Shown in pieces: positions 11,008-23,362 of a stretch of DNA of 64,000 bases. How positions within the stretch are numbered: position 1 is the first letter of the stretch; every line of letters begins with the position of its first letter. The notes below the pieces were generated by a model that was given only the letters and a program-made list of their open reading frames with translations, was not told the DNA's origin and ran no database searches. A program made the position numbers and the translations under genes. The DNA is from Roseimaritima ulvae (GTDB lineage: Bacteria; Planctomycetota; Planctomycetia; Pirellulales; Pirellulaceae). The DNA lies in assembly GCF_008065135.1 (NCBI RefSeq), contig NZ_CP042914.1, positions 5,127,404 to 5,191,403 of the forward strand, written 5' to 3'.

Positions 11008-13632
11008 ATGACTCCGCTGCGAAAAGTTGTTCCCCTGTTGGCCGTACTCGCCATCGGACTGCCTGCCGCTCGAGCCGAGATCGTTATCAAGGTCTCGCCA
11101 CAAGGACCGCTGACAAGCATCGCAGCGGCGCAGCAGGAAGTTCGCAAGCTAAGAAAACAACATCCCACTGAAACGATTCGTGTGGTGGTGGCCGACGGCA
11201 CCTACCCAATCCACGAGCCGCTCACATTTGGCCCCGGCGACGGTGGAACGGCTGCCAACGCAGCGGTAATCTACGAAGCCGCCAAGCAGGCGCGGCCGGT
11301 GATTTCCGGTGGCCGCTCGATCGGCAAATTCACGGCTCAGAGCGATGGTATCTGGACCGCAAAAGTGCCCTCTGACTGGCAATTCGAACAATTGTGGGTC
11401 GACGGCCGCCGAGCCGTTCGAGCACGCGAACCGGATGCCTTTTTCTACTACTTGGTCAACTCGCACGAAGTCATCGGCCCCAAAGGCTCTCAACCGATCG
11501 CCCGTCAGACACTGTTCACGCGTCCGGCCGACATCGCGTCGTTGGCAGGTCTTTCGCCGGCCGAACGAGAACGTGCACAGATCTTGCTGTTCCACAAATG
11601 GGACAACACTCGCAAATTCATGGACTCGGTCGACGTCCACGCCGGACAGATTGGGATTTCCGGCCGCGACATGAAGAAATGGAATCGGCTGACGCGAAAT
11701 ACCGCATTCGTGCTAGAAAACTATCGCCAAGCCTTGGACGAAGCGGGCGAATGGTATCTCGACGCACAGGGCACGCTGTTTTACAAACCGTTGCCCGGCC
11801 AGACGCTCGACAATATTCAAGCCATTGCACCGGTGGCGGAGAAATTGCTGGTTGTCGCGGGCGATGCGTCGGCGGGGAAGTTCGTCCAGCACCTGCAGTT
11901 TCGCGGGCTGACTTTTCGCCATGCAGACTGGAAGACTCCTACAAAGGGCTTCGAACCATCGCAGGCCGCCTCCCCGATTGAAGCGGCGATTCAAGTGGGT
12001 GACGCCCGCCACGTGACGTTTGACAATTGCGAACTGGGACACGTAGGCACCTACGGATTGTGGTTTCGCCACGCTTGCCGCAACTGCACCGTAACGCGAA
12101 CCCAGCTTCATGACATGGGCGCCGGCGGCATCCGCATCGGAGAAACCCGGATCCCCAAGAATGAAGCAGAACGGACCAGCCACATCACCGCCGACAACAA
12201 TATCGTCTGGCAGGGAGGACGGATCTTCCCCTGTGCGGTGGGCGTTTGGATCGGTCAAAGCAACGACAATGTCGTGACCCACAACGAGATCGCGGATTTC
12301 TACTACACCGGAATCTCCGTCGGTTGGCGGTGGGGTTACGAAGGCGGTGCAGCCCTGCGGAACCGGATCGAATTTAACCATATCCACCACCTCGGCATGG
12401 GCTGGCTGTCCGACATGGGCGGCGTGTACACGCTGGGCCCCTCATCGGGAACCACCGTCAGCAACAACGTGCTGCACGACATCCTGGCATGGAGCTACGG
12501 CGGATGGGGGTTGTACAACGATGAAGGCAGCACCGGAATTGTGATGGAAAACAATCTGGTCTACCGCACCAAATCCGGCGGCTATCACCAGCACTACGGC
12601 CGAGACAACGTAATCCGCAACAACATCCTGGCCTTCGCGCGTGAATACCAAATCAAACGCTCGCGCGTCGAAGATCATTTGTCTTTCACCTTCGAACGCA
12701 ATATTGTCTATTGGGATCAGGGCGATTTGTTGCACGGCCACTGGGACGATAAGAACGTTGCTATCCATCACAATCTGTACTGGCACGCTGGCGGTCAGCC
12801 CGTCGATTTTGCCGGCAAAACTTTGCAGCAGTGGCAAGCGTCGGGCAAAGGCCAGGGATCGCTGATCGCCGACCCACAGTTTGTGGACCCAGCCCACGAC
12901 GACTTTCGTTTGCGCCCCGGTTCACCAGCCACCAAAATCGGTTTCCAGCCCTTCGATTACAGCCGCGCCGGAGTTTATGGCGATGCCGCTTGGGTGGCCA
13001 AAGCCCAATCGTTGCCGATGCCGAAGATGGAAACGCCGCCCGCTGTGCCCTTGCTGGAATTTGTGGAAGATTTCGAATTCGGCAATCTTCCCGTGACTTC
13101 ACGAGTCAGCAAAGACGAGAAGCGGGGCAGCATCACGGTGGAGGAAACCTCGTTCGCTCACTCTGGCAACCGAGCCATGCGGATTCACGACACGGCCGGC
13201 CAAAGGCAGCGTTATCTTCCATTGCTGACACTCACGCCCGAACACAAAACGGGCCGCACTCGCTGTGCTTTCCAGGTGCGGCCAGGCAAAGGCTCCGTGT
13301 TTCAGCATGAATGGCGGGACTCGCAGCGGAACTATCGGGTCGGGCCGACCGTGTGGATCGAAGACGGCAAATTGCGATGTAACACCGGCCAACTTATGGA
13401 GGTGCCGCCCGAACAATGGATCGAGATCGAAATTACGGCGGATCTCGGCGAAGCGGCCGGAACCTGGGCTCTGGTCGTTACACCAGAGAATGGCAAACCG
13501 CGACGCTTCGAAAATCTGCCCGTGCAGAATCCAGAATGGAAGTCATTGGATTGGCTAGGATTTGTCGGGCAAGGCGACACGGAATCCGAAATCTGGATCG
13601 ACGATTTGGAACTGACCCACCAAGCCCCGTAG
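11008..13632 (+). CDS. Secreted right-handed beta-helix protein, GH141-like architecture
   Basis: The 874-residue protein has a signal peptide ([23 protein letters not shown]). The opening, with [20 protein letters not shown] and VISGGRSIG, then [15 protein letters not shown], follows the pattern of polysaccharide-acting parallel beta-helix proteins such as GH141. From about 290 to 620 there are repeated Asn-rich rungs (NNVLHD, NNLVYRT, NNILAF) typical of a helix that turns about every 22 residues. A C-terminal module (~690-870) looks like a jelly-roll carbohydrate-binding domain. It probably acts on plant or algal polysaccharide outside the cytoplasm; hydrolase versus lyase cannot be decided by eye. 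An AGGATC ribosome site lies about 10 nt before the ATG. It is monocistronic and convergent with btaB. Confidence 0.88.
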
Positions 13633-13930
13633 TCTGACTCGCCGCGGAATTCCTAGCTGCGGGGGACGTCAATTGTATTACTGCAGCATTGTATCTTGGG
13701 GCCTCATTCTTCACCCTCCTTTTCAAGGAGGGTCGAGCCTTAGCGAGGGGGAGGTTCTTTGGCAGCGGCGCAGTCGCCCTCTCCTCGCTGACGCTCGACT
13801 CGCCCAGGGGGAGAGTTGTCTCCATGGGCTCGCGCCCATGGCTACACTACGCCGCCGCTTCGCGGCTTATCGCAAGACGGTTGTCGCTGTCGCCGCTCCA
13901 CAGCTATGCTGCGCCCCTCTCCAACCCATG
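13633..13930. repeat. Palindromic repeat cluster between convergent genes
   Basis: The 298-bp gap holds no gene. It contains a 9-bp stem with a 3-nt loop (ACCCTCCTT ttc AAGGAGGGT, 13713-13733), a second 8-bp stem (CCATGGGC tcgc GCCCATGG, about 13823-13842), and Ser/Leu-like low-complexity sequence between. Similar stems occur elsewhere in the window. Lying between the ends of two convergent genes, they may also end transcription, but neither is followed by a T tract. Confidence 0.65.
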
Positions 13931-14698
13931 CTACGAGAAGCGTGGTTGGGCGACGGGTTTGGTGCCCACGAACAAATAATATGGAGCTTTGACAAACGGC
14001 AGATAGGGCACCCGGCCAGTGTGCTCAGAAAACTGTCTAACCTGAGTTTCTCGATGCAACATGGCGGCATGGTCACCGTTCAAAAACACATTGTCCGCGG
14101 CGAACCAATGACTCCAAAAAGCACGTCGCAACCCGCCGTGTTGATGATGCCCGTCGGCGGCAAATTTGCGGGACACGTAGAAATCAACCACCGCCAATGT
14201 ACCGCCCGGACGTAACATGCGGACGGCGTTTGAAACGGCGGCAAACCAGTCGGGGATCATCGTTAGGGAATAGGAGAATGTGACCACGTCGACACTGTTG
14301 TCGGGCAGACTAAACGTCGTCGCATCGGTACAGTGTGTTTGCACGTTTGCCAATTTTTCTGCGTTGATGCGTTGCTGCGCGACTCGCAGCAGTGAAGGCG
14401 TTAAGTCGACCAGATGGACGTTCTGCAACGCTTGCACTTGCCGGCCGGCATGCAGCAGGTTTTCCCCGGTGCCAGCGCCCAGGTCCACCCAAACGGCCTC
14501 AGGCACAAACGGGATCTGTTCGATCAATTCCTTGCGGCCATGCAACAGACGCGAGCGAAAATTATCGTAACCCTCGGCCTGCCCGGTATAAAAACTTTCT
14601 AGACGTTCGGCGTGGGTTTCGCCGCGGACACGGTGGAACAGCAGATGCCACAACGTCCGCAAATCGTTTCGTCGCGTCGTGGTTCCGACCTCACTCAT
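13931..14698 (-). CDS. btaB: Betaine-lipid N-methyltransferase (BtaB)
   Basis: The 255-residue protein is a class I SAM methyltransferase: motif I is VDLGAGTGENLL (~73-84), motif II has VHLVDLTPSLL, and motif IV is DVVTFSYSLTMIPDW. The C-terminal GRVPYLPFVKAPYYLFVGTK matches the tail conserved in BtaB. BtaB methylates diacylglyceryl-homoserine three times to give the betaine lipid DGTS. The start codon overlaps the btaA stop as ATGA, which makes the assignment much stronger than sequence alone. The N-terminal extension (about 60 residues before motif I) is longer than I expect for proteobacterial BtaB and may resemble the methyltransferase half of fused eukaryotic BTA1; that comparison is from memory. 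Confidence 0.85.
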   Translation of the reverse strand: MSEVGTTTRRNDLRTLWHLLFHRVRGETHAERLESFYTGQAEGYDNFRSRLLHGRKELIEQIPFVPEAVWVDLGAGTGENLLHAGRQVQALQNVHLVDLTPSLLRVAQQRINAEKLANVQTHCTDATTFSLPDNSVDVVTFSYSLTMIPDWFAAVSNAVRMLRPGGTLAVVDFYVSRKFAADGHHQHGGLRRAFWSHWFAADNVFLNGDHAAMLHRETQVRQFSEHTGRVPYLPFVKAPYYLFVGTKPVAQPRFS

Positions 14699-15984
14699 GC
14701 TACCGCCTCTGGCAACAACGCGTCTTGCTGCGATCGATCGTCATAGCGAGTTGGCTCCATGGGCGGGCACTGCAGATCCGCGATGCAGCAACTGCCGTAC
14801 GTATGCACCCGGTCGCGGGCGTGCAAGCGAGCTGCCAAATCACGGTCGTAGCTCAGCAATTCGCCAACGCGGTGTTGGCGACCATCGACGGTAACCTTCA
14901 GGGGGTCCACAAAATCGACGTTCAGGGCGGCGCTGCGCCACATGACACGTGCATGCGGCGCTGCTCGATCGACAATGGCTTGCCATTCCGACGCCAGCAG
15001 GTCGGGGCGGTGTTCCTGCAGCCAATCCATGTGGTCCAGCAACACGTATCGAGAGATCTGCCCCGGATGATGTCTCAGGAACTGCTCGACCGTTGCCGTA
15101 TGCGTCTGGACACGATCGACAAGGCCGGCTTTCAGACGTTCAAAATTGTCGGGTTTCAAATACTCAGGACAACAGTCCGGCGTATAACTGCCCGTCAGGT
15201 AGACGCGCCAAAAATAGTTGTCCTGCAAGGGCAATTGTTTCAACAACACGTTCACGCGGTCTTCCACGAACCGAGCGATGCCGCCGGGGTAGCCGTCATC
15301 GATCTGCTTCCGCTGACTGCGGGGCACCCCCAACATGGCCATCGTCGTATCGCGACGTAAGAACCAACGCAGGCGTCGTGACCATAGACGTTGCTCAACC
15401 TGACCGGCGTCACACAATTCCACCTGCTGCTGCAGGGACGTAGCATCGATGACCTGCAGCATCGCATCCCGCAAACCCTTGTGGCGCCGCAGATAGCCGT
15501 TGACCATCCAGGCAAAGGTACCCGACGTGCCGCGAAAATAGAAGCTCTTTCTTCGTGAAGAGCCATCGAAGAAAGTCAGTCGTTTATCCCACACCCGGCG
15601 ATAGTTTTCCGGCAGATGTTGACGGACGGCGGAGTGGTACAAGTGACGCCAAGCGTGATGTCGACCGCGGCCGAACACGTCAAAAAAATCCTTGTAACCG
15701 AGCGCCCGAATCGACGCCAGCTTCAACTCCAACAACGCATTCTGCAGCGGGTTCATGTCGACCGCATGCACCGCCGCCGGCGCCTGCAACACATAGTCCA
15801 AGGCGTTGCACCCCGCCGAGGTAATCACCATCACGGTGTCGGTAGGCCCCAACTGCAGGGCTTCTCGGTCCAGCCGAGGATCTTCCCAACAGGTGTTATA
15901 GACCAAGTTTTTAGTGTGCACCGTCGAAAACACTCGCTGGCCAATCCAATGGGTAATCACACCGATATCCTTCGTGGAAAACAA
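14695..15984 (-). CDS. btaA: S-adenosylmethionine:diacylglycerol 3-amino-3-carboxypropyltransferase (BtaA, DUF3419)
   Basis: BtaA moves the 3-amino-3-carboxypropyl group of SAM onto diacylglycerol to make diacylglyceryl-homoserine, the first step of DGTS synthesis. The 429-residue length fits the family. Seen near the N-terminus are LVYNTCWEDPRLDREAL (the conserved CWEDPR box), TDTVMVITSAGCNALDYVL (SAM-binding loop) and AVHAVDMNPLQNALLELK. The C-terminal part has YVLLDHMDWL and VMWRSAA. The start is uncertain: the longest frame begins with TTG at 15984, 30 bp after the plcP stop, and no clear ribosome site is visible. The stop overlaps the btaB start, so the two steps of the pathway are coupled. 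Confidence 0.9.
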   Translation of the reverse strand: MFSTKDIGVITHWIGQRVFSTVHTKNLVYNTCWEDPRLDREALQLGPTDTVMVITSAGCNALDYVLQAPAAVHAVDMNPLQNALLELKLASIRALGYKDFFDVFGRGRHHAWRHLYHSAVRQHLPENYRRVWDKRLTFFDGSSRRKSFYFRGTSGTFAWMVNGYLRRHKGLRDAMLQVIDATSLQQQVELCDAGQVEQRLWSRRLRWFLRRDTTMAMLGVPRSQRKQIDDGYPGGIARFVEDRVNVLLKQLPLQDNYFWRVYLTGSYTPDCCPEYLKPDNFERLKAGLVDRVQTHTATVEQFLRHHPGQISRYVLLDHMDWLQEHRPDLLASEWQAIVDRAAPHARVMWRSAALNVDFVDPLKVTVDGRQHRVGELLSYDRDLAARLHARDRVHTYGSCCIADLQCPPMEPTRYDDRSQQDALLPEAVA

Positions 15985-16014
15985 TTATCAAGAGGCATCA
16001 ACAAAACGGGAGCG

Positions 16015-16926
16015 TCAGGCGGCAAACTCTGGCAGGCGATCCTGGTTGGAATCCGCTTCGGCGTTTGTCGGAGAGGTGGGCTCAGATTCGAGCTCGCAGG
16101 CTAAGGGCGTTTCCCCATCGGCCGATTCCACCGCCCGCACTGGCAGGCGAAGAGTGCGACTGTCCTGATAGCGGCCGATCAGACGAATTTCACCATCGTG
16201 GTGTTCGACCAGGCCGGTGCAGTTTTCCATCCAGTCGCCGGTGTTGCAGTACACAAGCGAGCCGGGCTTATAGACGATGTCAGGCGTATGGATGTGTCCG
16301 CATATCACCCCCTGGCATCCTCGAGTGTGGGCGTAGTCGGTCAGTTTGTGTTCGAAATCGCTGATGAACTGAATGCCGCGTTTGACGCGATGCTTCAGCA
16401 TGCGGCAGACGCCATACGGGTTGTGCTGCTCCGTCATCGTCCAACGATGCAGCCACCAGTTCAAACTCAGGCAGGCGTCATAAAAGCAAGAGGAAGCTTT
16501 AGAGATCCATTGAGCCTTGGTTTCGAAGAAATCAAACGAGTCGCCGTGGGTTACCAGAAACCGCCAGCCATTATGCATCTCGTGCACAAAGTCATGTTGG
16601 ATTTGAATGCCGGCCAATTCCTGCGGCAGCATGGTCCGGAAAGCCTTGTTTCGCAAAAAGGAGTCGTGGTTGCCGGGCACGTAGCAAATCTCGGTCCCGC
16701 GCCGAGCCAGTTGCAACAGATGCTCGATCACGTCGTCGCAATGTTGATTCCAGGTCCAGCCGGAAGCAAACTTCCAGCCATCGATGAAGTCACCGACGAT
16801 ATACAGTTTGTCGGGCCTGAAGCGGCGAAGAAATTTCAAAAACTCAGCGGACTGCGAATACTTGCTTCCCAAGTGAACATCGCTCACTAGCAGCGTCCGC
16901 ACCGATTCCCATTCGGTGGTAGTCAT
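16015..16926 (-). CDS. plcP: PlcP-like metallophosphoesterase (lipid-remodelling phospholipase C type)
   Basis: The 303-residue protein carries the full calcineurin-like metallophosphoesterase set: SDVHLGS (~15-21), GDFIDGW (~45), PGNHDSF (~87), VTHGDSFD (~125) and CGHIHTPD (~205). LpxH (UDP-diacylglucosamine pyrophosphohydrolase) is the nearest well-known relative by motif, and automatic annotation would say so. The placement 30 bp before btaA-btaB instead favours PlcP, known from Sinorhizobium to split phospholipids into diacylglycerol and headgroup phosphate when phosphate is scarce; diacylglycerol is the substrate of BtaA. The ATG at 16924-16926 with GGAAAA 9 nt upstream was preferred to a TTG five codons earlier. 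Confidence 0.75.
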   Translation of the reverse strand: MTTTEWESVRTLLVSDVHLGSKYSQSAEFLKFLRRFRPDKLYIVGDFIDGWKFASGWTWNQHCDDVIEHLLQLARRGTEICYVPGNHDSFLRNKAFRTMLPQELAGIQIQHDFVHEMHNGWRFLVTHGDSFDFFETKAQWISKASSCFYDACLSLNWWLHRWTMTEQHNPYGVCRMLKHRVKRGIQFISDFEHKLTDYAHTRGCQGVICGHIHTPDIVYKPGSLVYCNTGDWMENCTGLVEHHDGEIRLIGRYQDSRTLRLPVRAVESADGETPLACELESEPTSPTNAEADSNQDRLPEFAA

Positions 16927-16964
16927 GATCGCGTTTTCCAATCTGCACAGCGGATGGCGAACAA

Positions 16965-16993
16965 ATCAACGTCATGACCAACAAGTTATCAAC
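16965..16993 (-). promoter_or_regulatory. Three GTTGRT hexamers at 11-12 bp spacing, candidate PhoB-type site
   Basis: Upstream of plcP, on the minus strand, GTTGAT, GTTGGT and GTTGAT occur at 16993-16988, 16982-16977 and 16970-16965, spaced 11 and 12 bp, about 40-70 bp before the start codon. Pho boxes are direct repeats with an 11-bp period, and a phosphate-controlled promoter would suit this operon. The match to the known consensus is weak. Confidence 0.3.
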
Positions 16994-17054: not shown

Positions 17055-19160
17055 CTACGGTTTCGATTCGTCGGCTGTGTTCATCAGTTGCCGCGCGATC
17101 GAACGTCCCGATGTCGCTCTGGGGTGTTCTGCGTCGAGTGCCAATGCCGCCTCGAATTGGTTCAGTGCCTGTTGCGGTCGATCGATTTTCAGCAACAAGA
17201 AGCCCAGGTGGGTGTGCCATGCGACCTCGCCCGATCGCAAGCGGATGGCGCGGCGGTAAAGCTCGATCGCGGCCTGCGTATCTTCTAAACCTGCCTTGGC
17301 CTCCGCCAACAAGGCGAGGGTGGAGGCATCATCGGGAAACGCGGTGTCGATCTGCTCCAGCAGTGGAATCGCTTCGTCGAACTGCTGTCGCTTTATTTTG
17401 GCGATCGCTCCGTTGTAGACCGCACGCCAGTATCGATCGGTATCCGGTGCCAGCAAGGCAACCGCCATCGATAGGTGTTGATCGGCGTTTTCGTGGTCGC
17501 CTGCGATCAGCAACCACTCCCCGTATGCCAGATGCCCTCTTCCGTAGAACGGAGCGACCGAGATCAGTCGCTGGTACTTTTGCACCGCTTCTTCGCTCTG
17601 ATGCATCTGCACCAAACAGTCGGCCAGTACTACTAAGCTTTCCGGATCGTCGGGGATACACTGCAACGCATCACGAGCCCGCGGTGCGGCTTCGTCGAAT
17701 TTGCCGGCCCAGTGCAAGACTTTGGCGAGGTTCCGCAGAGCGACGCCCTGTTGTTCGATATCGATACTTGCCCTTACTCGTTCGACGATCACCTGTTGCT
17801 GAGCTTCGGGGATCACACTGCCGGCGATGATTCCGTCCGCTCGTAGGCCTTCGGTGATCCACAGCGCCAGCTGCCGGTGTGCATCGATGGTGGGATGGAC
17901 GTGGTCCAGGAAATATTCCTCACCGAGGAGCGAATGTCCGTGTTCGTCATAGCACCGGTCACGAAGACGCTTCTCAAAATCGATCAGCGTAGCGTCCTGT
18001 TCGGCTGCGATCTTCCGTACCGTTTCCAAGAAGGCCTCGGGGGCACGCAGGGGGCAAACGTCATAGTTCAACGCCCGCTGAAACGCCTGTTGTGCCGCTT
18101 CGGTATCACCGGTTTCCCAATACGCCTGGCCCAGTCGATAATCGACCAGAGCGTATTGATCATCGATCCGCTGTGCTTGCCGCAGCGTTGCGATTGACCG
18201 CTGCCACTGACCATCGTGGGCTTCAACGGTCGCACGCTTCAGCAGTTCGTTGACCGACGGCTGATCGATCCCCGGTTCAAATTCACTCTTAAAGGGAGAA
18301 CAGTTCTTTTCATTGGACGCTGGCACGACGAACGCAATTTCAGCTCCGGCGCCGCGGGCGATGGCGACCATCCGCCGTAGGTTCAGCTCGTAGTGGTGCA
18401 ACACCTTGGCGTGCCACTGCGCGTCGCGGTGATAATCCGCCGGTCCAATCGTATGGTTCAGCATTTCGTCGACTTCGCCGGGCAACACCTCCGCTGGCGA
18501 CCTGCGTTGCGGATCGTCTGAACGATGAATGGCCGATTGCAACACGCCCCAGGTGCGGGTGCGGCGGAGCGCTGCGGTGACCGCAAAGTTTAAGTCGGAG
18601 GTTTCGAACATGTCCGTGTAGGTGCGGCGTTCAAGAAACTCGTTTTGGCCGCTGTAGACGATGAACAGGTCAGGCTCGTACTGAGCCAATTCTTCCATCA
18701 CCGCCGCCACGCGATAGCTGGCGTAGCTGACGCCGCCGGCATTGATGACTTCCCACTGCGTGCTGTCGTCGGCCAGCGGGAGAAATTCGCGCAGCCATCC
18801 GCAGAACGAAGTTGAATCGGCGAAGGGGCGGCCAAACGTGGTTGATCCGCCCAGGCAAAACACACGCCTCGTATTGGCAGTTTTTTTCAGCGGAAATTGC
18901 TGGTCGTTAAACCATACCAATTTGTTGGCAGCCGTCCGCAATTGGACCTGCCCCTGCTCGTCGGTCACTCGCTCCAGCAGTGGAACCCGTTTGGAAAACC
19001 CCACGAAAGGATCCGACGTGTCGACGTTTTTCCCCAATCCCAGCAGGACCAGTGACAACTCCAAGAAAACAAAAAAGCCACACGTCACCAGCAGGCCAAA
19101 CAAGACTTTCTTGCGCAGGCTCAAGCGAACGGACGGCTGTCGTTTTTCAGAGCGATTCAT
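17055..19160 (-). CDS. Membrane-anchored SGNH hydrolase with TPR repeats
   Basis: The 701-residue protein starts with a basic segment and one transmembrane helix (VLFGLLVTCGFFVFLELSL). The SGNH hydrolase blocks follow: the nucleophile in CLGGSTTFG (~125), INAGGVSYASY (~165), YSGQNEF (~190) and the catalytic DHVHPT (~420). TPR-like helical repeats occur inside (~310-370) and at the C-terminus (~480-700), including AAPRARDALQCIPDDPESL and ALNQFEAALALDAEHPRA. Such proteins deacetylate or deacylate cell-surface glycans or lipids. The ATG at 19158-19160 was chosen because the signal anchor then lies at the usual distance; the frame extends 11 codons further. It is followed 128 bp later by plcP, so it may share that transcript, but a separate promoter is likely. 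Confidence 0.88.
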   Translation of the reverse strand: MNRSEKRQPSVRLSLRKKVLFGLLVTCGFFVFLELSLVLLGLGKNVDTSDPFVGFSKRVPLLERVTDEQGQVQLRTAANKLVWFNDQQFPLKKTANTRRVFCLGGSTTFGRPFADSTSFCGWLREFLPLADDSTQWEVINAGGVSYASYRVAAVMEELAQYEPDLFIVYSGQNEFLERRTYTDMFETSDLNFAVTAALRRTRTWGVLQSAIHRSDDPQRRSPAEVLPGEVDEMLNHTIGPADYHRDAQWHAKVLHHYELNLRRMVAIARGAGAEIAFVVPASNEKNCSPFKSEFEPGIDQPSVNELLKRATVEAHDGQWQRSIATLRQAQRIDDQYALVDYRLGQAYWETGDTEAAQQAFQRALNYDVCPLRAPEAFLETVRKIAAEQDATLIDFEKRLRDRCYDEHGHSLLGEEYFLDHVHPTIDAHRQLALWITEGLRADGIIAGSVIPEAQQQVIVERVRASIDIEQQGVALRNLAKVLHWAGKFDEAAPRARDALQCIPDDPESLVVLADCLVQMHQSEEAVQKYQRLISVAPFYGRGHLAYGEWLLIAGDHENADQHLSMAVALLAPDTDRYWRAVYNGAIAKIKRQQFDEAIPLLEQIDTAFPDDASTLALLAEAKAGLEDTQAAIELYRRAIRLRSGEVAWHTHLGFLLLKIDRPQQALNQFEAALALDAEHPRATSGRSIARQLMNTADESKP

Positions 19161-19187
19161 AACGAGTGGACTTTCCCCTCTTCGCCG

Positions 19188-19292
19188 TAGCATGGGCCCC
19201 CGGCCCGTGTGACGCGCGCATCACCAGCCACGTAGGTACACGGGCCAGGGGCCCATGCTACAGAATTACACGGGCCAGGGGCCCATGCTACG
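19188..19292. repeat. Three copies of a palindromic GGGCCAGGGGCCCATGCTAC repeat
   Basis: Two direct copies (about 19232-19253 and 19268-19291) and one inverted variant (about 19188-19212) surround the upstream end of the SGNH gene. Each can fold through GGGCC/GGCCC pairing. They sit between two minus-strand genes, the downstream end of the M56 gene and the SGNH start. Confidence 0.7.
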
Positions 19293-19309: not shown

Positions 19310-22300
19310 TCAACGGTTTTCGGCCAACACATCTTGCAGTGAACCCACCGCCTGCACCTTGCCGTCTTTGTTAATGAGCACGCAGCAGGGAAACATCTTC
19401 ACCGGATAACCTGTGATCCTATCAAGAGTGTAACCGGCGCCTTGAGTTTCGGTGCCACGTAGCACCGGATATTCCATGCCAGAGTCCGCGATCGCTTTTT
19501 CGATCTCCTCGGCCTCCGTTCCCGGAACGTGGACGCCCACGATGTGCCAACCGTTCTCAGCCATTCGATTCAGCTGGGGGATGTCGTTTTTGCAGGGGCC
19601 ACACCAAGTCGCCCAGAAGTGCAGAAGTATGGGTTTGCCCTGTGAGTTTTTAGGCAGTTTTTTATCCGTGATCCATTGGCCATCGAGCTTGGGCGCTGGT
19701 TTGCCCAGCATTTGTTTCAGCGGTTCGAGAGCATTCGCGACTAACTGGGCGCTTTCAAGTTGTTTTTTCTGCGCCGCGTCCACCAGGCCGTGGATCTCTG
19801 ACTCAGGCATCTCTGGGTCAAAGGAATAGACGACCGGAGTTGAAAAACGCCAGTCGGTGACCTTGTCTCCCTTTTTGGGTAATGACTTTTCGATCAACGG
19901 TTCTAGGTCGGGCGTGAGGCTCACATCGCGTACGATCGTCTGGTTAATCTGGTACTTGAATTGCTTGCCCTCGTGCTGCCAGTTTGACCACCATTCCGTC
20001 ATTGGCAGCTCAATGCCTGATGTGACCTCCCGATAGTCGGTGAATTCGCTTAACGCCCTAGGATGCTGGTTGGCTTCGTGCAGATATTGAAATTCGCAAT
20101 GCAATTGAACTCGTTGAATATCCGTCAAATTCTCCTGAGACCACTGATCGAAAGCTTCCCTCGACTCGAAGGTGCGTCCGGCGAGCTTGCGTGTCGCTTC
20201 CATCTCGTGCATCCAAGTGAACTTGCCTTGGCTGGCGAAGGTCAAGCAAGCTCGCAATCGCCCCGTTGATTGGCTGATCCAAAATTGTTCTCCGCGGGGA
20301 ATCGAGCGAATCACGTGGCAGCGTTCGCCAGCGAAGTCTTCATCGGGAAGCTTTTGGTAGTTGGCGTACTCGACGGGAATCTTTGAGTTAACAAAAAATG
20401 ACGGTAGATCGCTTGGCTCGACCCAGCCAAAGCGATGGTCTCCAAGGTGCAAGTATTTTGTGGGTCTGAAGTAGTGAATCGCAAACGCGTCGGCGAAGCG
20501 GCGATAGCGCCCGAACGAACCGGATGAATCACGCCACCAACCGCGGGAACCGTCCCAGCTACGTTCGGAGGTCTGGTCATAGGGTTCACCCTCGTACACA
20601 TATTTTTGCCGCTCCGTGGCAACCACAACGTTATCCTCCCAGGCCCACGTTTGATTTGCCGTCGATAAACTTTTTTCAAAGTCGCGGTGGCTCAGGGCGG
20701 CTTGCAGATTTTCCAGAGAACGCTCTTCTTTCAAGCCGATCACGCCTTGGGGCGCCCCATAATAGGACGTATAGGTTTGTGTCGAAATCTGGGCCGACGG
20801 TAGCTTGGTAACCGCGGTAAGTTGCTCGTGGACGCGAACGGCCAGTGCTTGTGCATCGGCGTCTGCTGGCGGTGCCAGTGAAAGATAGGGTTTGTCCGCG
20901 TTGCGAACGGCTGCCGTTGGAGTATCGGCTGGCTGTAGCGTCAGAACGATGGGCTTATCAGGATTTATGTTGATCGGATCCGTTCGCAGCTTCTTGTACC
21001 CAGCCGCTTCGACACGGAATTCGTAAGGCACGTCCGCAAAATGCGGCAGCCTTATCCGTCCTGCCACGTCTGTCTTGTGCGGATAAATCGGGCCGCCTGG
21101 GGAACCATAAATTACCGGCACGCGGACAACGCTTGCTCCTTCAATGGGGCTTCCATCTTTGCTTTGAACTTGAATCTCGGCGGTAATGCCTGCAGCGAGC
21201 CGCAACACAATTCCCTCGACCATGTCGCCCGGTTCAACGTCAAATTTTTCTGACCTTATGGGCGCGAACTCGTCGGCAAAGTACGTCAGGTAACATTGTC
21301 CGGCGGGACCTTCCAACCGGAACGAATCCTTGAACTCCCCAACGGTGCCATGGTAACTGCCTGAGCCGCTGCGAGATTGGTAGTGCAGGTAGCCCTTTGA
21401 GGTCGCTGGCGAGCCATCGGGCATTACAATGGTGCCGTTGAAGGTCGCCTTATTGGAATCCGTTGCCGCGATCGGGACGGTGAGAATTTGTGAAGTCACC
21501 TTGGTTTTCTGCTGAGGCCGCAGCGCCACATGGGGAAACGTGACGCGATAGCGGATCGGCCGCAAGCGATATTCGAAATGGTCGATATCGCCCAAAGCCA
21601 AATCAAAAATGTCTGCGTCACGAGTGACGCCGGCAGGATCGTCCCACAGCGTCGTCCCGTAGGGTCGGTGGCGCAAGCCCTGCTGATCGACGGCAATCAG
21701 TTCGGTTTTCGCCAAGTCGTTTTGACCACGCTCGTGTGCCCAGCGAATCATCACACGCTCACCTCGCTTGACGATGCTGTGAAACTGGATGGCATCGTAT
21801 GCTTCCCGGTATCGTGGCTGAATCAATACCGGCTCGATCAGTTCGGCGTTTCCGTCCAGTTTCCTCCATGGCCCCCAGTCCGCATCCGGGATGCCGATCG
21901 TCAACTTGTCTTCGCTGACGTTTTCATCGGGAACAACGATAATGGACGCGATGCCATCTTCGTTGGGGAACCACATCGTATTGACGCCGGGCATGTCGTA
22001 GGTAGGCCGTTGGTTATCGGCAAGCCCAACATACCGTACGAACAGATTTACGCCGGACAGCTTTTTGGTCGCTGAATTGAAGCCTACCTTGGGCAGATCA
22101 GGAGCCGTTTCAAAAGGCGTTCCATCCGCTTGCCACGCCTGGCTGGCATCGGATTTGTGAGGCATCACGGCAAGCAATTCAACCGATAGGGAATCATCGA
22201 TTTGGGCCACAAACGGTGCTGAGTCGATACGACTCTCTTCCTGCTCCTCCGGCTCATCCGCCGCTTGCAGGACCGCAAACCCTGCGATGCTGACGAACAT

Positions 22301-23362
22301 CGTCATGACCAAAAACATTGCCAGGAAATACGCTCCCGGACTGACCGAGGCTTTTTGTTCGCTGGACTTGGACATCAGGCGGCGGATACGCGCGATCAAC
22401 GATCCATCGTGAGCGCCGAGTGCCGGCGAAAGGTTTTGGGACCGCAATTCTTCGATCGCCAGTAACGCCCGACTGAGAATGGCCGGATCGTGGATGGCTC
22501 CAGCGGCCAGATCGTCGCAGCAGTTCTCACGTTCGATCCGAATCCGTCGCGACAGCCACCAGACCGCGGGGTGATAGAAGAACAGCGTCTCTACCAAGGA
22601 CTGGAACAAGTTGACGATGTAGTCGTAACGGCGCACATGAGCCAGTTCGTGAGCGAAGATCGCTTCGATGTGCTCCGGTGCAACGCCTCCAAGAAAGTTT
22701 GTGGGAATGATCACAAAGCTCTTGAATGCCCCCACAACCACGGGCGATTCGATCACGTCGCTGACCAGCAGCTGTACATGGCGGCGAACGTTCAAACGTT
22801 TTGCCGCGTTCTGTAGGGCTGCCAATGAGCCGCGATCATGAACCTCGCGGGCCCTTCGTTTCAATTGACCGACGCGTCGCCAACCAAGCAGGAACCGCGA
22901 CGCGAACAGCAGGACGCCCACGCACCAGCCGTAGGTGATTGCGGAAAGCCAAGGGGCAATCGCGTTAGCAAGGGTGGTTGTGAGCGACGAAGCATCGGAA
23001 GCGACGGGTGGAGTATCGACCAGAGTCACTTGCTCGGTCGCGTTGCCGGTGGACACGACTGGCAACGCTGCCTCGCTAAACGTTTCCTCTGGAAGGCGCC
23101 CGGCAATACCGGGCATCACGCTGCTTGTGGGATTTGTTTGTAAGTTCAATTCTGCTACCAGAACCGGTGCTGGCTGCACCCTGACAAAGGCGCATGTCAC
23201 GATCGGACAAGCCGTCATCATCGCAAGGGCGATGACGAGCGTGCTGTACCGCGCCGACGCCGAGCGGCGGCGCATCAAGCCAGCGGTGATCAACCAGGTG
23301 ATGAAAGCGATCACGGCGAACTGCCAAAGGGAATGTACAATCAACCAGCCAAAATCGTTCAT
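19310..23362 (-). CDS. BlaR1-type M56 metallopeptidase fused to a C-terminal thioredoxin (TlpA-like) domain
   Basis: The 1350-residue protein has an N-terminal multi-helix membrane domain with the M56 zinc motif HELAHVRRYDY (~236), the zinc-binding RERENCCDDLA-like segment (~283) and a further helix (~340-365). A long extracytoplasmic part follows, including a carboxypeptidase-regulatory-like fold (~690-790). The C-terminus (~1225-1350) is a thioredoxin-fold domain with the redox-active pair in FWATWCGPC (~1252) and a cis-Pro region GYPVKMF. BlaR1/MecR1 proteins sense an external signal and trigger cleavage of the BlaI repressor; here the sensor half carries a redox domain instead of a penicillin-binding one. 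The start overlaps the BlaI stop as ATGA, so both are co-translated. Confidence 0.92.
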   Translation of the reverse strand: MNDFGWLIVHSLWQFAVIAFITWLITAGLMRRRSASARYSTLVIALAMMTACPIVTCAFVRVQPAPVLVAELNLQTNPTSSVMPGIAGRLPEETFSEAALPVVSTGNATEQVTLVDTPPVASDASSLTTTLANAIAPWLSAITYGWCVGVLLFASRFLLGWRRVGQLKRRAREVHDRGSLAALQNAAKRLNVRRHVQLLVSDVIESPVVVGAFKSFVIIPTNFLGGVAPEHIEAIFAHELAHVRRYDYIVNLFQSLVETLFFYHPAVWWLSRRIRIERENCCDDLAAGAIHDPAILSRALLAIEELRSQNLSPALGAHDGSLIARIRRLMSKSSEQKASVSPGAYFLAMFLVMTMFVSIAGFAVLQAADEPEEQEESRIDSAPFVAQIDDSLSVELLAVMPHKSDASQAWQADGTPFETAPDLPKVGFNSATKKLSGVNLFVRYVGLADNQRPTYDMPGVNTMWFPNEDGIASIIVVPDENVSEDKLTIGIPDADWGPWRKLDGNAELIEPVLIQPRYREAYDAIQFHSIVKRGERVMIRWAHERGQNDLAKTELIAVDQQGLRHRPYGTTLWDDPAGVTRDADIFDLALGDIDHFEYRLRPIRYRVTFPHVALRPQQKTKVTSQILTVPIAATDSNKATFNGTIVMPDGSPATSKGYLHYQSRSGSGSYHGTVGEFKDSFRLEGPAGQCYLTYFADEFAPIRSEKFDVEPGDMVEGIVLRLAAGITAEIQVQSKDGSPIEGASVVRVPVIYGSPGGPIYPHKTDVAGRIRLPHFADVPYEFRVEAAGYKKLRTDPININPDKPIVLTLQPADTPTAAVRNADKPYLSLAPPADADAQALAVRVHEQLTAVTKLPSAQISTQTYTSYYGAPQGVIGLKEERSLENLQAALSHRDFEKSLSTANQTWAWEDNVVVATERQKYVYEGEPYDQTSERSWDGSRGWWRDSSGSFGRYRRFADAFAIHYFRPTKYLHLGDHRFGWVEPSDLPSFFVNSKIPVEYANYQKLPDEDFAGERCHVIRSIPRGEQFWISQSTGRLRACLTFASQGKFTWMHEMEATRKLAGRTFESREAFDQWSQENLTDIQRVQLHCEFQYLHEANQHPRALSEFTDYREVTSGIELPMTEWWSNWQHEGKQFKYQINQTIVRDVSLTPDLEPLIEKSLPKKGDKVTDWRFSTPVVYSFDPEMPESEIHGLVDAAQKKQLESAQLVANALEPLKQMLGKPAPKLDGQWITDKKLPKNSQGKPILLHFWATWCGPCKNDIPQLNRMAENGWHIVGVHVPGTEAEEIEKAIADSGMEYPVLRGTETQGAGYTLDRITGYPVKMFPCCVLINKDGKVQAVGSLQDVLAENR

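Follow-up and report, generated by a model that had tools for sequence, protein, structure and literature searches.

A predicted plcP-btaA-btaB operon for betaine lipid synthesis in the planctomycete Roseimaritima ulvae

In the genome of the planctomycete Roseimaritima ulvae, three closely packed minus-strand genes, plcP, btaA and btaB, very probably form an operon for the synthesis of a phosphorus-free membrane lipid, the betaine lipid diacylglyceryl-N,N,N-trimethylhomoserine (DGTS), a reading to which we assign a probability of about 0.85. The genes lie in a stretch of 64,000 nucleotides of contig NZ_CP042914.1 (assembly GCF_008065135.1, positions 5,127,404 to 5,191,403 of the forward strand), which is the whole piece of DNA analysed here and is called the window in the following. 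As judged from characterised relatives, PlcP would split glycerophospholipids into a phosphoalcohol and diacylglycerol, onto which BtaA would move the 3-amino-3-carboxypropyl group of S-adenosylmethionine (SAM) to give diacylglyceryl-homoserine; BtaB would then methylate the nitrogen three times, yielding DGTS. The identity of the genes, their packing, linkage and co-occurrence, and the presence of a separate LpxI were established in the present analysis. An original prediction, made from the letters of the DNA, had proposed this phosphorus-sparing pathway; its gene identities and pathway logic hold by sequence, linkage and co-occurrence, while the novelty that it saw in a planctomycete was overstated, since among 148 sampled genomes of the same class BtaA occurs in 55 and BtaB in 54, and planctomycete BtaA already stands in a published tree (in the accessible part of PMC10685587). 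The pathway is known elsewhere and is common in the class of R. ulvae; outside this class its occurrence in the phylum is patchier.

The product of btaA matches a single Pfam family, DUF3419 (PF11899), with 389.8 bits (E 2e-116) over positions 7-383 of the 385 of the profile, the curated cut-off being 28.2 bits, and the product of btaB, a class I SAM methyltransferase, matches Methyltransf_11 with 68.1 bits; no NCBIfam model listed passes its own cut-off for any of the three proteins (25 of 34 families being listed for the methyltransferase). The three packed minus-strand reading frames of the original prediction are present, as are the CWEDPR motif of the DUF3419 protein and the GRVPYLPFVKAPYYLFVGTK end of the methyltransferase. 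The same succession of a DUF3419 gene and a SAM methyltransferase gene is found in rhizobial btaAB: on a Rhizobium leguminosarum plasmid the two overlap by 4 bp, and in the Sinorhizobium meliloti record similar neighbours surround a DUF3419 match in two pieces, where no gene is listed. Unlike the window, the S. meliloti record has plcP about 390 kb from btaAB. The btaA product is 29% identical to the rhizobial DUF3419 protein, and the btaB product is 31% identical to the rhizobial BtaB candidate over 176 columns and 24-25% over the whole alignment. From these similarities we infer aminocarboxypropyl transfer to diacylglycerol by BtaA and N-trimethylation to DGTS by BtaB.

The distribution of the three genes carries the argument further. 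In the class sample, DUF3419 was matched in 63 genomes at E ≤0.001, in 61 of them over the family cut-off, and BtaA was counted at a score of at least 339.9 bits (the 55 genomes above), the next best match having 255.9 bits and weaker ones being set aside; BtaB was counted at 187 bits or more (next 55) and PlcP at 137 bits or more (next 62). Both BtaA and BtaB are present in 54 genomes and neither in 93, one genome has BtaA only, and none has BtaB only; the sole BtaA genome without BtaB (G130) has a divergent BtaA, which clusters with the rhizobial sequences of the tree described below. PlcP occurs in 45 genomes, that is, in 41/55 with BtaA and in 4/93 others, one of the latter (G128) having a stop codon inside the match. 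As for linkage, 46/54 genomes have BtaB no more than 500 bp from BtaA, while in five it lies more than 2 kb away, elsewhere in the genome; of the 41 genomes that carry both PlcP and BtaA, 25 have the two no more than 500 bp apart, and all three genes fall within 2 kb in 22/55 BtaA genomes, a count that takes no account of strand and order. Among named loci, of which the best 80 of at least 572 confirmed were considered and in which short contigs can hide genes, 20 carry the three genes on a single strand in the order plcP-btaA-btaB, 33 btaA-btaB, 24 btaA alone and three plcP-btaA; the nearest BtaA loci among these 80 come from Rhodopirellula, Stieleria, Roseiconus and other planctomycetes, with up to 66% identity. 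A second set of 56 fetched loci, which partly overlaps the first so that the counts are not independent, gave 16 with all three genes and a PlcP match above 150 bits (L064, with a 24% match, was excluded). The co-occurrence of BtaA and BtaB, together with the association and linkage of PlcP, supports a PlcP-BtaA-BtaB route to DGTS as the probable function.

Some observations of the same survey stand apart. Three genomes (G142, G065 and G023) have two PlcP-type genes each, one of them adjoining btaA. A very divergent DUF3419 branch, scoring up to about 83 bits, was seen in G039, G014, G141 and G038 (loci L081-L084), which have no high-scoring BtaA, and in G136 (L085) in addition to a high-scoring BtaA. 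In 11 loci, mostly without adjacent btaB, the neighbouring genes were inspected by eye for a replacement methyltransferase, and nothing was settled. An apparent bacterial BtaA-BtaB fusion, a 948-aa open frame in G205, was discarded, as the locus shows btaA and btaB in separate frames. Two records of metagenome-assembled genomes, titled Candidatus Kuenenia stuttgartiensis (L125) and Holophagae bacterium (L174), have BtaA loci like those of planctomycete records, and are possibly misbinned or mislabelled.

Several points weigh against the operon for DGTS. The Fisher tests of co-occurrence (5e-40 for BtaA-BtaB, 6e-20 for BtaA-PlcP) ignore the relatedness of the genomes. PlcP falls below its score in 14/55 BtaA genomes and lies elsewhere in the genome in 16 more. 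In a phylum sample of 119 genomes, 24 match DUF3419, five of these 24 being from the class of R. ulvae, and just five genomes outside the class reach 300 bits, four of them from one family and with btaB directly beside btaA. Moreover, BtaA and BtaB are just 24-31% identical to the rhizobial proteins, a low identity that would leave room for an acceptor other than diacylglycerol or for incomplete methylation of the product; a Foldseek search of the predicted BtaA model found no match in the Protein Data Bank at E 0.001; and no convincing Pho box was found upstream of plcP, in the window or in 18 relatives, with a matrix made from seven E. coli Pho boxes, which may miss a planctomycete PhoB motif.

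By this last result, the phosphate-responsive operon of the original prediction is not supported, within the reach of the E. coli matrix. In the window the best Pho-box-like site upstream of plcP ranks 16 of 127966, and its score is reached by 2/40 shuffles; among the relatives, the best upstream score is reached by none of the 40 shuffles at locus L108, by two at L132, three at L120 and five at L166, and by at least 10 in the other 14. When the four pst loci of R. ulvae itself were scanned whole, the best scores were 9.8 to 14.7; the matrix may therefore be ill suited to planctomycetes. The sequences upstream of plcP share a different element: in all eight aligned regions (the window and the seven nearest plcP relatives) we read (T/C)TAAC plus one base, 17 bp and NGNTAN, a promoter-like pattern to be taken as weak because the consensus scan did not list it. 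It could be, although we consider it somewhat unlikely, that the betaine lipid of BtaA and BtaB is made constitutively, that PlcP supplies or recycles diacylglycerol, and that the trigger is not phosphate starvation. This would agree with the poor Pho-box scores of most relatives and with the 30/55 BtaA genomes in which PlcP is absent or unlinked; on the other hand, the scan may have been blind to the planctomycete motif, few shuffles reach the sites of the window and of the four loci named above, and the linkage of PlcP points to remodelling. The remodelling operon is kept as the preferred interpretation; under it, phosphate starvation may induce the genes, and DGTS may be found in the cells.

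A second alternative concerns the substrate, since BtaA and BtaB might use an acceptor other than diacylglycerol and produce a related but different betaine lipid. Besides the low identity to the rhizobial proteins, it is favoured by the existence of clearly different DUF3419 branches, such as a second gene in the same genome; we consider it very unlikely in view of the high full-length DUF3419 score and of the linkage to PlcP, whose product would be diacylglycerol itself. As for structure, no solved structure is similar to BtaA by sequence at E 1, and the 50 weak Foldseek matches listed for the model (AlphaFold2 on 35 BtaA rows; mean predicted local distance difference 86.9, predicted template modelling score 0.87) are mostly SAM-dependent methyltransferases, as expected of a SAM-using BtaA, yet not decisive. 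The second DUF3419 gene (C1:288976-290022; locus L080 8420-15017) scores 222.6 bits and is 25% identical to btaA; it adjoins minus-strand genes for a phosphoenolpyruvate-synthase-like protein, a UbiA-like membrane protein and an AMP-dependent ligase, and its product possibly transfers the aminocarboxypropyl group to another acceptor.

The first gene matches Metallophos (PF00149), the family of calcineurin-like metallophosphoesterases, with 51 bits, and we regard its product as PlcP, which would hydrolyse phospholipid to diacylglycerol. It is 36% identical to its S. meliloti homologue, which we take to be SMc00171, the characterised PlcP, since an autoinducer synthase gene and a LuxR gene lie near it, as fits that locus; the identity of the window protein to E. 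coli LpxH is 22%. The 37 distinct planctomycete homologues behave alike, with median identities of 38% and 23%, respectively. Residues D16, H18, D46, N86, H127, H211 and H213 are kept in 95% or more of the 38 planctomycete rows; the metal-site residues are also common to the S. meliloti homologue and E. coli LpxH. The window protein and its S. meliloti homologue both have the motif GNHD, as do 36/37 of the distinct planctomycete homologues, the remaining one having GNGD, whereas E. coli LpxH has GNRD at this position, in which Arg80 marks LpxH specificity. The LpxH models of NCBIfam are missed by a wide interval (NF003743, 47.3 against 134 bits; TIGR01854, 38.8 against 190.35). R. ulvae has LpxB and, with 170.9 bits, LpxI, the latter being present in 147/148 genomes of the class sample; lipid A synthesis therefore has its own enzyme, which would make it independent of the first gene. 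That the gene instead encodes an LpxH-type UDP-2,3-diacylglucosamine hydrolase of lipid A synthesis, merely lying beside btaAB, is hardly credible: six LpxH sequences are its nearest solved relatives (weak matches), LpxH models are its best NCBIfam matches and it is the best match of its own genome to the LpxH model (38.5 bits), but it falls below both cut-offs, has GNHD, coexists with LpxI and tracks BtaA across the class. The original prediction had warned that an LpxH-like annotation would hide plcP, and it was right, since 24 of 32 matched plasmid records label the gene UDP-2,3-diacylglucosamine diphosphatase; seven have no listed feature there and one says "metallophosphoesterase", and a part of the 32, being weak matches, may be something other than PlcP.

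The history of the genes was approached with a BtaA tree of 50 rows, comprising two rhizobial rows and 48 planctomycete rows, the latter representing 47 of the 55 BtaA genomes (one genome having two rows). BtaA of the window and those of two further family members form one group (100/100), while the other nine rows of the family join another family (99/96); among these nine, plcP lies elsewhere in the genome in eight and is absent in one. A single clade for BtaA of the family was rejected in a 28-row tree (approximately unbiased test, p 4.3e-5; nine rows of the family constrained, covering 9/14 of its BtaA genomes), a p value that is optimistic because the test was picked after the first tree and the 28 rows were our own choice. 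Transfer between families, or an old duplication with losses, would both fit this split. A broader scenario, rather speculative and in our opinion unlikely, is that betaine lipids are a standing component of many planctomycete membranes and not a starvation response, and that the PlcP-linked cassette spreads between families, replacing the resident btaAB in part of the family of R. ulvae.

The arrangement has a precedent in the literature, of which the accessible parts are considered here. In marine heterotrophic bacteria plcP-btaA-btaB is the type 1 arrangement, and it fits the lipid results obtained with Phaeobacter sp. MED193 and mutants (PMC4796936); the function of PlcP and BtaA/B has been reviewed (PMC3972451). 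As in type 1, btaA and btaB lie downstream of plcP in R. ulvae and PlcP would feed diacylglycerol to BtaA and BtaB; unlike the marine case, the host is a planctomycete, and no convincing Pho box was found with the E. coli matrix. Planctomycete BtaA, of the same protein family and from the same phylum, was placed at the base of the marine algal Bta1 clade (posterior probability 0.92, PMC10685587); PlcP, the gene order and the distribution in the phylum come from the present analysis and are not mentioned in the available text of that paper. Trimethylornithine lipids are known from planctomycetes (cited in PMC3972451 and PMC10667739), and at community level betaine lipids correlate with Planctomycetota among other groups (PMC10667739), while in soil they have been tied to Proteobacteria and fungi, and not to planctomycetes, in the part of PMC9969633 at hand. 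In the accessible text of a study of planctomycete ornithine lipids, DGTS is named once, as a general example (PMC12493201). No report of DGTS in a planctomycete culture, or of plcP-btaA-btaB in planctomycetes, was found among the papers listed from the open literature, judged mostly by titles and the beginnings of abstracts.

The coordinates of the features are collected in Table 1. The spacing given by the original prediction stands in part: btaA and btaB do overlap by 4 bp (ATGA), while the 30 bp between the plcP stop and btaA apply only to the listed TTG start and become 54 bp if btaA begins at the GTG at 15960. This GTG (421 aa) is more probably the true start than the TTG at 15984, because GAAGGA lies 7 bases upstream of it and relatives begin near the matching residue. 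The upper limit of 16993 once given for the three genes lies outside plcP, which has its ATG at 16926; the start listed for its longest frame is a TTG at 16941.

Table 1. Features of the plcP-btaA-btaB region, in positions of the window.
Feature	Position	Strand	Description
plcP	16015..16926	minus	303 aa; metallophosphoesterase superfamily phospholipase C, predicted to form diacylglycerol
btaA	14695..15984	minus	DUF3419; predicted SAM:diacylglycerol 3-amino-3-carboxypropyltransferase; 429 aa from TTG
btaB	13931..14698	minus	255 aa; predicted SAM-dependent N-methyltransferase
Promoter-like element TTAACA-N17-TGATAA	16986..17014	minus	Upstream of plcP; weak, alignment read by eye

Around the three genes the window encodes a beta-helix protein with a match to a GH141 insertion domain (11008-13632), a TPR protein with a weak GDSL-lipase match (17055-19193) and a BlaR1-peptidase/thioredoxin protein (19310-23362), for none of which a link to the pathway was seen. 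A DUF1559 gene, of a family that is a planctomycete marker, is also present. Downstream of btaB, at 13732-13799, lies a dispersed repeat containing CTCGCTAAGGCTCGAC, which has 177 sites in the genome at up to one mismatch (87 forward and 90 reverse; none for the reversed control), another copy being near a pstS gene.

If the interpretation is true, a DGTS pathway that is common in one planctomycete class would be a further bacterial origin of betaine lipids, with a bearing on the reading of DGTS in water or soil as a marker of algae or fungi. The gene order and distribution reported here may be set beside the published near-root place of planctomycete BtaA relative to marine algal Bta1. As other bacteria are already known to have the pathway, and as it is common in the group, its confirmation in R. 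ulvae would be useful rather than surprising.

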